In this document: positions 25,185 to 47,740 of the stretch, piece by piece | Layout: each line of letters begins with the position of its first letter | Position numbering within the stretch: position 1 is the first letter of the stretch | Source: an uncultured Roseiflexus sp. | Lineage (GTDB): Bacteria > Chloroflexota > Chloroflexia > Chloroflexales > Roseiflexaceae | Length of the DNA: 64,000 nt | Direction: 5' to 3' | Assembly: GCA_937935075.1 (NCBI GenBank) | Contig: CALGYB010000041.1 | Span: 1-64,000 of the forward strand | Notes under the pieces: model-generated | What the model was told of the DNA's origin: nothing | Database searches by the model: none | The model's input: only the letters and a program-made list of their open reading frames with translations | Program-made: the position numbers and the translations under genes

Positions 25185-25348
25185 AGTAGTGAATGTTGAA
25201 GGGTGCAGGTTGAAGGTGGGGGCGCGCTGCTGGCACGCCTGCAAGAGGCGGCGCGCCCACATGCGTGATTGGAGCAAGCGGGCGGGCGTTGAACGTTGAA
25301 TGTTGCAGGTTGAAAGTGCGAAGGGTGCAGGTTGAAGGTGGAGGGTGT
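25185..25348. repeat. Degenerate seven-base array (GTTGAAN)
   Basis: From 25288 successive units read GTTGAAC, GTTGAAT, GTTGCAG, GTTGAAA, GTGCGAA, then after one extra base GTTGAAG, GTGGAGG. A shorter block of the same units is at 25190-25218. It is part of a 494-bp gene-free stretch (25134-25627). Confidence 0.6.
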
Positions 25349-25453
25349 CAGTAGCGTTACACCACAATGTCTTCGTGCCGTAAAGGCGCGGCAAACTCGT
25401 TTGGCATGCGTGTTGCAGTGTCAGTAGCGTTACACCACAATGTCTTCGTGCCC
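25347..25453. repeat. Direct repeat of 34 bp
   Basis: A segment beginning TGTCAGTAGCGTTACACC and ending TGTCTTCGTGCC occurs at 25347-25380 and again at 25418-25452. A G-rich hairpin (GTAGGGGCGCCC...GGGCGCACCTAC-like) follows at 25524-25556. No gene. Confidence 0.7.
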
Positions 25454-26587: not shown

Positions 26588-26848
26588 CCCACACCATCCT
26601 TTGCAACGAACAGAGAACCCGCCGGAATCAGCCAGGGGTCACGGTTGAGGACGCAGAGAAGGTTGACGGGCGAATCGCGGCGGCAGGCGTCGTTAGCGCA
26701 ATTATACGCAGGGCTGGCGTAGAAGTGATAGTTGACGTTTGCTCGCTATCAGGTTATATTCCGATAACCACGCGATATGCCGTCCGAGCCTGAAGAGAAT
26801 CTCCGCCAAGAGATATATGACTTCACCGCAAAAAGCGGTAACCACGAA

Positions 26849-27113
26849 GGTCACAAAGAGACACGGAAAAAATGCGCTTCATCTTTATTCCCCTTCGTGC
26901 GCTTCGTGTCCCTGGCGGTTCAGCCTAACCACGAAGGTCACCAAGGGACACGAAGGACATGCGCTTCATGGTTCTTCCCCTTCGTGCGCTTCGGGTCCCT
27001 GGCGGTTCAGCCTAACCACGAAACCACGAAGGTCACCAAGGGACACGAAGGACATGCGCTTCATGGTTCTTCCTCTTCGTGCGCTTTGGGTCCCTGGCGG
27101 TTCAGCCGGTGTG
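26849..27113. repeat. Three tandem copies of an ~87-bp repeat
   Basis: Units begin with GGTCAC at 26849, 26936 and 27031 (87 and 95 bp apart; the second gap has an extra 8-bp duplication of AACCACGA). Each contains TTCGTGCGCTT, then TCCCTGGCGGTTCAGCC and, in the first two copies, AACCACGAA. Copies 2 and 3 are nearly identical; copy 1 is more divergent. The open frames across it are repeat-driven. It lies in the 806-bp gap before the GH4 gene. Confidence 0.8.
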
Positions 27114-27393
27114 CAGTGGACTCATATATAATCTCAGACTTGTGACGGCTCACATCTCTGTCATTGTTCGATGCAGCGTAACAGCAGGGTCAGCGGCGTT
27201 GCGACAGCTTCTGGTCTGTCTACCGCCGGCGCCGGCATCGATGAATGAATGCCTGGTGGAATGTGAGCGAAATGGCGTTGCTGCTGCCAGCCGCGAACGA
27301 CTTTATGCGCCGCCTGAATGCAGCGCGGGTTGTGGCATAATAGCCGCACACGCGAAGCGAAATCGTTTCGCACAGGAAAAGCGAGGTTCTCCA

Positions 27394-28800
<1,407 letters not shown>

Positions 28801-28957
28801 GGCCTGTCGCATAATCTCACACAAAGGCGCGAAGGCGCAAAGGCTCCACGATTTCTCGCACTCCTGTGTTAGTCCTGTTAACTTATGGTTAACCTTGTGT
28901 TATCGTTCTGCAACGTCGAGGGGATCGAAGCATAACTCTCTTTTCGACGCAGTGCGG
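28801..28957. other. Intergenic spacer, no gene
   Basis: Contains a short dispersed motif at 28815-28843 (CACAAAGGCGCGAAGGCGCA) also found in variant form near 23588 and 47474. Nothing else was recognised. Confidence 0.5.
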
Positions 28958-28963
28958 TATACT
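28958..28963 (+). promoter_or_regulatory. -10 box of the structured RNA
   Basis: TATACT at 28958-28963 ends seven bases before G28971, the first base of the folded RNA. That is the spacing expected for a transcription start at the beginning of the structure. No consensus -35 is apparent. Confidence 0.5.
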
Positions 28964-28970
28964 ATGCTCA

Positions 28971-29120
28971 GAACCGGGACGCAAGCCATTGGGCGAGCGT
29001 AGGAAGCCGAAAGGTTTCCAGGGGGGTCATTGGATCCCCCGGCCCGGTTAAATTATTGCCTGTAGGTCCTGACACCACGAAGCGACGCGATTTCCCAACC
29101 GCGTCGCTTCGTGTATTTAT
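28971..29120 (+). ncRNA. Candidate structured small RNA with own terminator
   Basis: Closing stem AACCGGG (28972-28978) / CCCGGTT (29043-29049) encloses three arms. Arm 1 is ACGC/GCGT plus GCC/GGC around loop ATTG (28979-29000). Arm 2 is GGAAGCC-GAAA-GGTTTCC (29002-29019, a GNRA tetraloop). Arm 3 is GGGGGGTC-ATTG-GATCCCCC (29021-29040). Single-base linkers separate the arms. A 14-bp terminator stem follows at 29076-29113. It lies between two convergent protein genes, so it is not a leader of a plus-strand gene. It does not match any RNA family I can name. The sense strand is supported by the -10 box and the downstream TATTTAT tail, but the stems alone would fold from either strand. Confidence 0.55.
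29076..29120 (+). terminator. Perfect 14-bp terminator hairpin
   Basis: CACGAAGCGACGCG (29076-29089), loop of 10, CGCGTCGCTTCGTG (29100-29113), then TATTTAT. It ends the candidate RNA. Read on the minus strand the same stem lies just past the galT stop, so it may serve both directions. Confidence 0.75.
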
Positions 29121-30184
29121 AACGATCGATAGTGGCGCTCCGGCAACGCGCGTAGTCGTTCCGCAGCCTGTTCGGGGGTAATATCACGCTGCGCTTCGGC
29201 AAGCAACTCGAAGCCGACCATGAATTTGCGCACCGTCGCTGAGCGCAGGAGCGGCGGGTAGACGTGCGCGTGGAGATGCCATGCCGGATGGGGCGCGCCA
29301 TCGGTGGGACGCTGATGGAAACCGAGCGAGTAGGGGAATGATATCTGAAATAGATTATCGTAACGGGTAGTCAGGCGTTTCAGAATATCCGCCAGCCCCA
29401 TGCACTCATGCGCTGTCAGGTCGCTGATGGCGCCAATATGTCGACGGCTGATGATCATGGTCTCAAAGGGCCAGACAGCCCAGAATGGAACCAGCGCCAC
29501 GAAGTCGTCATTGGCGCAGACGAGACGCTCTTCACGTTCGAGTTCGAGCGCCAGGTAATCCGCCAGCAACGAACGTCCGGTTGCCGCCAGGTAGTCGCGC
29601 TGTGCGGCGTCCTCGCGCATGATCGTCAACGGCAGGCGCTCGGTGGCCCAGATCTGACCGTGAGGATGCGGGTTGCTGGCGCCCATCATCGCTCCGCGAT
29701 TCTCGAAGATCTGCACATAGCCGATATACGGCAACGCCCCAATTTCTTCATACTCCCGCGCCCACACGTCGACCACGTGTGCGATCGCGGTCACGTCCAT
29801 CTCTGGCAGCGTCAGGTCGTGGCGCGGCGAGAAGCATACCACTCGACAGATGCCGCGCTCGCTGCGGGCGTAGAGGAGCGGCGGCGCAGCATCATCGGGC
29901 GACCCCGCGCTCAAAGCGTACTCGCCGGATGGAATATCCGGCAAAAGCGCCGAGAAATCGTTGGTGAACACAAACGTGCGCTCGTAGTGCGGATTGACTT
30001 CGCCATTCGCTCGGACGTTCCCAGGGCAAAGGTAGCAATTCGGGTCATACACCGGGCGTTGCTCCGGCAGCGGCGGCTCGACCTGTCCCTGCCAGGGGCG
30101 CCTGGTGCGGTGCGGCGAGACCAGCACCCACTCGCGCGTCAACGGGTTGTAGCGTCGGTGCGGATGGTCTGTAAGCGAAAACAT
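29117..30184 (-). CDS. galT: Galactose-1-phosphate uridylyltransferase
   Basis: 355 residues from ATG 30184. GalT exchanges UMP between UDP-glucose and galactose-1-phosphate in the Leloir pathway. Residues 50-53 (CYLC) form the first zinc ligand pair, and [10 protein letters not shown] near 166-175 carries the active-site HPH whose second histidine is uridylylated. [16 protein letters not shown] and the C-terminal [12 protein letters not shown] are also typical. The open frame upstream of the ATG is palindromic repeat DNA. No galK or galE lies in the window. Confidence 0.93.
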
Positions 30185-30200
30185 GGGCGCCTCCCGTCCC

Positions 30201-30326
30201 CCGGAGGGGCAGGTCGGAGACCTGCCCCTCCGGCCTGTCCCTCCGGCTGGCGCGTGTACGGGCAGGTCGGAGACCTGCCCCTGCTGTTGCGATCGGTCCC
30301 CGTAAGGGCAGGTCGGAGACCTGCCC
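30201..30326. repeat. Three near-identical palindromes between thiolase and galT
   Basis: Each has GGGCAGGTC-GGA-GACCTGCCC: stems at 30201-30233 (extended to 15 bp, CCGGAGG...CCTCCGG), 30260-30280 and 30306-30326. A fourth family member with loop TCA is at 52795-52817. Lying directly after the thiolase stop, they could act as terminators or mRNA-stabilising hairpins; they are also typical REP-like dispersed elements. Confidence 0.85.
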
Positions 30327-31508
30327 CTACTGCCCCAACATCTCCACCACACCCGCTGCGCCCATGCCGCCGCCGATGCACATGGTGATCAACCCGTACC
30401 GTCCGCCGCGCCGCCGCAGTTCGTGCAGGATCTGCACCGTCAGTTTCGCGCCGGTGCATCCCAGCGGATGCCCCAGGGCGATGGCGCCGCCGTTGACGTT
30501 GACCTTCTCTTCGTCGAGTTCGAGCGCCCGGATGACCGCCAGCGCCTGTGCGGCAAAGGCTTCATTCAGTTCGATCAGGTCGATCTGATCAAGGGTCAGT
30601 CCGGCCAGTTTCAGCGCCTTCGGCACTGCCAGCACCGGGCCGATTCCCATGACCTCCGGCGGTACGCCTGCGACCGCGAACGACACAAAGCGCGCCAGCG
30701 GCTTCAACCCCAGCGCGTCAGCCTTTTCGCGGCTCATCACCACTACTGCTGCCGCGCCATCGCTCGTCTGCGACGAGTTGCCGGCAGTGACCGTGCCGTT
30801 CACCGCGAAAACCGGCTTCAACTTCGCCAGCGCCTCAGCCGATGTGTCGCGGCGCGGTCCTTCGTCGGTGTCGAAAACGGTGGCAGTGCGCTGCACTTTA
30901 CCATTCTCGAACCAGACATGTTCGACTTCGACCGGCACGATCTCCTCTTTGAATCGCCCGGCATCGATGGCAGCGATCGCGCGCTGGTGCGACCGCAGCG
31001 CAAAGGCGTCCTGGTCTTCGCGGCTGACCTCGTAGCGCTTTGCCACGTTCTCGGCAGTCAACCCCATGCCAAGGTACACATCGGGGCTCATCTCGGCCAT
31101 TGCCGGGTTCGGCGCGAAATGATGCCCGCCCATTGGCACGGCGCTCATACTCTCCGCGCCTCCGGCGACGATCACATCGCCCATCCCGCTCATCACCTGT
31201 TGCGCCGCCAGCGCAATCGTCTGCAACCCCGAGGCGCAGAAACGGTTGACCGTCTGCCCCGGCACGTCGTTTGGCAGACCGGCGCGCAGCAGCGCGACGC
31301 GCGCCATATTCAGGCCCTGCTCCGCTTCCGGCATGGCGCATCCCAGGATGACGTCGTCGATCTCTTTTGGGTCGAGACCAGGCGCGCGCTCGACTGCTGC
31401 CTTGATAACAGTCGCTGCCAGGTCGGTCGGATGCACACTGCGCAGCGCGCCGCGCGGCGCTTTGCCAACCGCAGTGCGAACGGCGCTGACAATCACTGCT
31501 TCCCGCAT
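30327..31508 (-). CDS. fadA: Acetyl-CoA acyltransferase (3-ketoacyl-CoA thiolase)
   Basis: 393 residues. It carries out the last step of beta-oxidation, thiolytic release of acetyl-CoA. The nucleophilic Cys is in [14 protein letters not shown] near residue 87. [15 protein letters not shown] near 347 holds the catalytic His, and the last catalytic Cys is in [12 protein letters not shown] near 381. [11 protein letters not shown] is also present. It is the distal gene of the beta-oxidation operon, 13 bases after the FadN-type gene. An acetyl-CoA acetyltransferase role cannot be excluded by sequence alone. Confidence 0.93.
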
Positions 31509-47463: not shown

Positions 47464-47740
47464 CACTTTGTGATCACACGGAGGCGCGAAGGCGCAAAGG
47501 TGAATGGTTCCTGGTTCTCATCGAGCGATTAACCCAACCCGGATAATCTCACACGAACGTGCGGTCAGTCAGACAAGATGTTCGCGCGCCCGGTTCGCAC
47601 GGCGTACCGATCCACAACGCCCTGGCATCAGCAGCCCCGGCGGGGCTTGCACGTGCGGTGAGCGCAGTCGAACTGCGTCCTCAGCAAGGGCTTTCGCCCG
47701 CAGCGCCCCGGCAGTATGGCACGAATGACCGCGCATGAGT
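47464..47740. repeat. Intergenic repeats upstream of the epimerase
   Basis: Positions 47466-47500 carry the motif GGAGGCGCGAAGGCGCAAAG, related to copies near 23588 and 28815. Positions 47632-47705 are the second copy of the ~75-bp dispersed repeat at 10231-10304. No gene. Confidence 0.65.

Follow-up and report, generated by a model that had tools for sequence, protein, structure and literature searches.

A predicted small RNA gene with two invariant AUUG hairpin loops next to galT in Roseiflexus and a sister genus

The locus and its predicted fold

The window, by which we mean the whole 64,000-nucleotide stretch of uncultured Roseiflexus sp. DNA analysed here, contains a segment between a GH4 alpha-galactosidase gene and a galT gene that is predicted to encode a structured RNA (Table 1). 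The next gene after the RNA is galT, on the opposite strand, and its end coincides with the RNA terminator; no gene on the same strand lies downstream, and the first-pass annotation was thus right to place the RNA between convergent genes and to set aside a riboswitch acting on a neighbour. Two other simple identities can be dismissed as well. A small protein gene would have to do without any ORF of at least 14 codons common to all six copies of the locus described below, two of which (in genomes G002 and G004) have none at all, and a mobile element or repeat is at odds with the single full-length match in the window's own genome, the other seven matches (E<=10) being short or falling on the opposite strand of the terminator.

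Table 1. Window coordinates of the RNA, its parts and the flanking genes.
Feature	Positions	Strand	Details and evidence
GH4 alpha-galactosidase gene	27382..28800	+	Pfam, NCBIfam; start codon uncertain, mechanical ORF from 27079
GCANTGCG block, directly 5' of the -10 box	28949..28956	+	invariant in six of six copies; possible extended -10 or operator
-10-like box TATACT	28958..28963	+	invariant in six of six copies; no promoter pair in consensus scan
RNA core, predicted four-way junction	28971..29049	+	folding z, covariation, covariance-model matches
P0 closing stem, 5' arm AACCGGG, 7 bp	28972..28978	+	partner 29043-29049; 42 of 42 cells paired
P1 hairpin, CC-ATTG-GG loop	28979..29000	+	arms 28979-28987 / 28992-29000 with 2x2 internal loop; loop ATTG 28988-28991; loop and two flanking pairs invariant in six of six copies; also in G010
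P2 hairpin, GAAA loop in the window	29002..29019	+	arms 29002-29008 / 29013-29019; loop 29009-29012; two pairs changed on both sides; loop variable elsewhere; arm absent in G010
P3 hairpin, TC-ATTG-GA loop	29021..29040	+	arms 29021-29028 / 29033-29040; loop ATTG 29029-29032, invariant in six of six copies; also in G010
P0 closing stem, 3' arm CCCGGTT	29043..29049	+	covariation analysis
Tail, mostly single-stranded, well conserved CCTGTNGGTYCTGA	29050..29075	+	3-bp hairpin 29058-29060 / 29065-29067
Intrinsic terminator hairpin, 14 bp	29076..29119	+	arms 29076-29089 / 29100-29113; fold; 3 of 14 pairs changed on both sides; weak T run in the window
galT, convergent with the RNA	29117..30205	-	Pfam, NCBIfam; start codon uncertain, mechanical ORF from 30352

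Repetitive sequence is found around both flanking genes. Upstream of the alpha-galactosidase gene (26840-27107) an 86-nt repeat occurs three times, with 88-100% identity to the reference copy and spacings of 87 and 95, and an AAAGG/GAAGG-type stretch of similar flavour occurs upstream of the RNA promoter (28820-28843) and again at 47477-47500. A palindromic unit, GGGCAGGTCGGAGACCTGCCC, is present three times at the 5' side of galT (30199-30334), and two identical 35-nt copies of GTGTCAGTAGCGTTACACCACAATGTCTTCGTGCC stand 73 bases apart, start to start, at 25345-25452. At and upstream of the galT start of genome G002 (L010:1476-1955) the sequence is also repetitive and reads as a repeated HSFIR/PFVYSLPHSLT frame.

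In the predicted fold of the core, the closing stem P0 encloses the hairpins P1, P2 and P3, and the same fold is obtained for all six copies. The 7-bp closing stem lies exactly where the first-pass annotation had put it, and the two arms said to share a C-ATTG-G loop do share it, both CATTGG loops being invariant in the six copies while stems and linkers vary. Three stem-loops are present as described, but they are not joined throughout by single-base linkers: one base separates P1 from P2 and P2 from P3, two (GG) stand between P3 and the 3' arm of P0, and between P0 and P1 there is either none or one, because A28979 can pair with T29000. Likewise, the GAAA tetraloop is correct for the window sequence but is not a conserved feature, the P2 loop being GAAA in two copies, GGAA in one and five bases long in three. 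The predicted structure is not a product of chance, with a minimum free energy of -79.4 kcal/mol for the 163-nt stretch (z -6.2; 0 of 200 shuffles as low) and z values from -5.7 to -6.5 for the 80-nt core in each of the six copies (0 of 300 shuffles each). Core and terminator are still found in the fold predicted at 60 C; the 3-bp hairpin of the tail, which is otherwise unpaired and carries the well-conserved motif CCTGT-GGTYCTGA, is missing from that predicted at 55 C. An outer TCAG/CTGA extension of the closing stem was rejected, as it fits only three of the six copies and lies mostly upstream of the likely start.

The signals that would delimit a transcript are present with some reservations. 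The upstream TATACT box of the first-pass annotation is there, 8 bases before the closing stem, and conservation extends over this box and about 30 bases further upstream, but no sigma-70 promoter pair is called by the consensus scan and no TTGACA-like -35 element was seen by eye. Near-copies of the promoter block elsewhere show a modest excess over a reversed-pattern control in each of six genomes. On contig G000:C219 (797-888), two near-copies of the GCANTGCGNTATACT promoter block, one exact and one with 2 mismatches, stand 74 bases apart on one strand and may point to a further promoter of this kind. The 14-bp terminator proposed earlier holds up as a hairpin (29076-29113), which is found in every copy and keeps its fold despite different letters in G009 and G003. 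In the window the T run is weak (TATTTATAA) and the consensus scan gives no terminator call, but all five other copies have 5 or 6 T. The controls are weaker for the terminator than for the core: 8 of 500 shuffles equal it in pairs with changes on both sides, 14 of 500 in the percentage paired and 442 of 500 in the number of pair types, and G009 looks out of register in the alignment used.

Conservation and distribution among relatives

When 60 genomes were searched at the DNA level, six matched strongly (E <= 6e-18), namely the window itself, four of the five other genomes of the genus and G009, which belongs to a sister genus; the best E-value among the remaining 54 genomes was 0.037 or weaker. 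A covariance-model search of the 26 genomes of the family recovered strong matches to the four-way junction in the same six, that is, in five of the six genus genomes (window included) and in the one from the sister genus, with one strong copy per genome. The RNA adjoins galT in convergent orientation in each of them, and the alpha-galactosidase gene lies on the other side in five; in G002 that side is cut by a contig end. When the covariance model R1 was run on 158 genomes of the class, with only 25 candidates per genome scored so that distant members could be missed, seven genomes reached E<=0.1, the same six and G119. We judge the G119 match (25.1 bits) to be a chance one, as it falls inside an ORF on the other strand. 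The distribution is narrow, with 6 of the 158 class genomes carrying the RNA.

Searches of the rest of the genome of the sixth genus member, G001, with the covariance models found nothing. We do not count its site as empty, because on the galT side the gene is followed by an insertion sequence, where the contig ends, and the contig with the alpha-galactosidase gene stops about 85 bases after that gene. The insertion sequence (L140:2596-3607, about 1 kb) has a DDE transposase fragment and 14-bp inverted ends and lies near the position that the terminator takes in the relatives.

The alignment of the six sequences supports the fold in several ways. Standard pairs make up 98.9% of its 190 cells, RNAalifold independently gives the same 32 pairs, and 4 of these 32 have changed on both sides. 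One pair of P0 switches from GC to AU in G009, and P3 has one A-A mismatch in G003. The covariation score is reached by none of 500 shuffles and by none of the slid controls, whereas 16 of 500 shuffles have as many pairs with changes on both sides, so that this second measure is less striking; these counts are not probabilities, because the six sequences are related and three of them (G002, G004 and G005) are close. Alignments A4-A7, in which G010 or G003 is out of register, were left out of the counts. The structure is genuine and conserved. A conserved structure with compensatory changes is also what one looks for in an independently transcribed intergenic sRNA. The first-pass annotation had asked for a covariance model from relatives and for compensatory changes, and had staked its claim in part on stems being conserved where relatives share the gene order; the model was built, the changes were found, and with stems conserved in six genomes the claim survives this half of its own test.

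A probable second architecture in a third genus

Outside the six copies, one further element deserves attention. Contig C644 of G010, a genome of a third genus, contains a predicted three-way junction with a 10-bp closing stem and two 7-bp hairpins, without P2, in which the hairpins follow each other in the same order as in the window, CC-AUUG-GG and then UC-AUUG-GA. In the search of the 26 family genomes, R1 scores it at 18.0 bits (E 0.78). R2, a model derived from four window-type cores after removal of P2, with G010 not included, scores it at 33.1 bits (E 0.0028 in the G010 genome), which on score alone corresponds to an E-value of about 0.1 over 40 genomes. The z value is -4.7 for the 64 nt of the element itself and only -1.9 for the surrounding 201-nt stretch, where 7 of 200 shuffles are as good. 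A TAGACT box stands 6 bases before its closing stem. The element is apparently intergenic, outside the gene for a PEP-utilising enzyme that is its neighbour in place of the gal genes and outside family-supported ORFs, with short mechanical ORFs overlapping it.

To what extent such pairs of hairpins arise by chance can be gauged from a scan for twin hairpins with the same loop (stems of at least 5 contiguous pairs, gap of at most 30), which considered all 256 C-NNNN-G loops and found six unique cases in 2.49 Mb of fetched DNA, a total that covers both strands, counts overlapping loci repeatedly and is not a random sample, some loci having been fetched for carrying CATTGG twice. Only that of G010 has a closing stem of at least 7 among the six. 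The contiguous-stem rule misses the window-type RNA, whose P1 has 3 bp and then an internal loop. The fetched loci contain 860 strong C-NNNN-G hairpins (at least 7 bp). Nine of them carry an ATTG loop, and six of the nine belong to the window-type RNA or the G010 element.

Searches for additional members were otherwise without success. In the 26 family genomes, R1 reached E<=1 in eight genomes with three weak extra matches, one of which is the G010 element and the other two of which overlap ORFs and have no twin loops. Among 40 relatives, R2 gave 14 matches in 11 genomes at E<=3: the six, G010 and seven weak ones. For these seven, neither the alignments nor the twin-hairpin scan reveal a pair of C-AUUG-G hairpins; four of the seven lie in or against long ORFs (L226, L227 and L229 fall outside this check). 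One of the weak R2 matches, L230, likewise in G010, shows a loop like that of P1 and some similarity in P3, but is antisense within an ORF and has z -1.2. A pattern search for CATTGG..CATTGG was run on eight genomes, and the matches listed exclude the rows of G000, G001, G006 and G012. Flanks were fetched for 33 of 33 matches in G010, 2 of 2 in G007, 14 of 29 in G008 and 13 of 100 in G011, in addition to 30 loci from the pattern search itself, and among the fetched CATTGG..CATTGG loci only G010:C644 has twin stems of at least 5. The twin-hairpin scan found no such pairs in 61 scattered contig matches to a short pattern or in 18 viral matches; two of the 61, compared with R2, and one of these also with R1, gave no match, nor did phage records.

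We consider the G010 element to be probably a second architecture of the window RNA. It might instead be an unrelated coincidence, so that the family would be reduced to one locus in two genera; the marginal score across 40 genomes, the modest z of the 201-nt stretch and the fact that its genus is represented by one genome in the family set all speak for such caution. We nevertheless find a coincidence improbable, considering that the order of the loops and two closing pairs per hairpin agree (CCATTGGG then TCATTGGA), that the stems are of 7 and 10 bp in an apparently intergenic place, that a promoter-like box lies at similar spacing and that the background rate of twin hairpins is low. Because the G010 element keeps both AUUG loops in order without P2, these loops look like the conserved core of the RNA, and the earlier suggestion that the twin loops matter as possible binding sites gains strength from it.

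Possible functions of the RNA

Comparison with known RNAs places the window RNA in none of the classes considered. Against Rfam 15 (4227 families) the window gave no match at gathering thresholds and the segment 28880-29180 none at E<=10, in keeping with the first-pass description of no recognised class, and ARAGORN called no tRNA or tmRNA gene in the window. Hfq and CsrA are the usual partners of sRNAs, as chaperone and as titrated protein, respectively. Neither Hfq (PF17209) nor CsrA (PF02599) was found in any of the six genus genomes, with controls detecting them in 5 of 14 and 3 of 14, so that an Hfq-dependent sRNA does not fit. CsrB/RsmY-type sRNAs titrate CsrA via GGA loops; the window RNA resembles them in lying between genes, in repeating one hairpin loop and in having a terminator hairpin of its own, but its P1 and P3 loops are AUUG rather than GGA in all six copies, there are only two of them, and CsrA was found in none of the six genus genomes. 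Guanidine-II (mini-ykkC) elements also have two hairpins with the same four-base loop. Their ACGR loops contact each other, and the element lies upstream of the gene it controls, whereas AUUG cannot pair with itself by sequence, the window RNA has no same-strand gene downstream, as a cis-regulatory riboswitch would, and Rfam shows no such match. Bacterial Y RNAs (YrlA) are likewise compact multi-arm RNAs with a closing stem of tRNA-like length, but here there is neither a tRNA call nor an Rfam match.

Structured RNA candidates confined to one Chloroflexota lineage are not without precedent. A table in PMC2864571 names the Chloroflexi-1 and pan motifs for Chloroflexota, and Chloroflexi-1 (RF01698) is listed for Chloroflexus aggregans; the window RNA shares this kind of lineage restriction but differs from Chloroflexi-1, as from everything else in Rfam, in giving no match at E<=10. 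A term search of PMC8632094 returned neither Roseiflexus nor Chloroflex-. In our searches of open-licence literature we found no sRNA in print from the genus Roseiflexus and no match for an AUUG tetraloop. As far as sequence can tell, then, the locus is most likely an uncatalogued sRNA gene of a new family, novelty being meant with respect to Rfam and the open-licence literature searched. The earlier claim of an independent RNA gene is supported by the conserved box, fold, terminator and orientation in six genomes, by the lack of an Rfam match and by the lack of a same-strand gene downstream.

What might such an RNA do? The reading we consider best, at a little short of an even chance, is that of an independently transcribed, trans-acting sRNA that presents two AUUG hairpins to a protein. 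The promoter box, the terminator, the orientation and the distance lead us to infer transcription of the RNA on its own, as a molecule of about 145 nt with its 5' end near 28970-28971 and its 3' end near 29115-29119. This transcript would form a junction that is stable to heat and closed at the 5' end, and would display two hairpins with the same AUUG loop, CC-AUUG-GG and then UC-AUUG-GA. The two are not equivalent; their second closing pairs are different, and to call them one site in two copies would be inexact. The pair of hairpins would most likely be offered in trans to a protein, as a scaffold or as a decoy, while P2, the third arm, would be replaceable structure, as would the outer stems. 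A protein seems a better partner than an RNA because few bases would be free to pair in a loop of four closed by C-G. Moreover, selection keeps both AUUG loops and their closing pairs constant, while stem lengths and letters, the P2 loop and, if the G010 element is kin, the whole P2 arm vary, and such fixed loops on variable stems fit hairpins read by a protein better than they fit pairing through four bases. The partner, if there is one, would have to be a protein other than Hfq and CsrA, because neither is detected in the genus.

Let us consider, however, that the RNA acts by base-pairing, the junction being merely a stability cap and the mRNAs being paired either by the tail 29050-29075 or by the CAUUGG loops binding CCAAUG at start codons. 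We regard this as unlikely, yet it keeps an appreciable share of the probability because the tail is open, save for its 3-bp hairpin, and conserved; a CCAAUG target would, moreover, include the start codon. The complement of the tail (at most 2 mismatches) occurs 49 times in the six genus genomes compared with 30 for the reversed control, an excess that is small; the RNA gene itself accounts for five of the 49, and few of the matches were inspected. Two tail-complement sequences recur, but their copies in the window genome make unconvincing start-codon targets. One copy lies inside a gene on the opposite strand, and because of this the mRNA would not contain the complement; the second is found past the 3' end of a gene and is directly followed by a mechanical TTG ORF, which runs antisense to that gene. 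Tetraloops are in general poor kissing partners, Hfq was found in none of the six genus genomes, and the G010 element retains the loops but not the tail.

An action in cis, either as the structured 3' UTR of the alpha-galactosidase mRNA together with its terminator or through antisense regulation of the galT 3' end, appears to us less probable still. The constant convergence with galT and the alpha-galactosidase gene on the other side in five copies would suit it, as would the end of galT at the terminator and the fact that read-through from either side would contain the RNA. A conserved -10 box with some 30 conserved bases upstream would be purposeless in a 3' UTR, however, the conservation extends to the loops and thus beyond a mere stable stem, and local control of the gal genes is unlikely because the G010 element adjoins another gene. 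We give least credence, very little indeed, to a free-standing ligand-binding RNA or other device that binds no protein: a multi-arm junction with conserved loops may be aptamer-like in outline, but no same-strand gene lies downstream and the strongest conservation is in the hairpin loops.

Returning to the protein-read pair of hairpins, one may go a step further and imagine, within this bacterial family, a family of sRNAs built on the ordered pair of AUUG hairpins that has survived changes in arm number and in gene neighbourhood and is read by a putative AUUG-hairpin-binding protein. This extension is tentative, and we hold it to be possible though on the doubtful side. Were it true, it would reveal a system of post-transcriptional control in bacteria where neither Hfq nor CsrA could be detected. 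The covariance models would allow annotation of the RNA in further genomes, and a single-copy RNA that uses one invariant loop twice would provide a defined bait for an RNA-binding regulator in this group.
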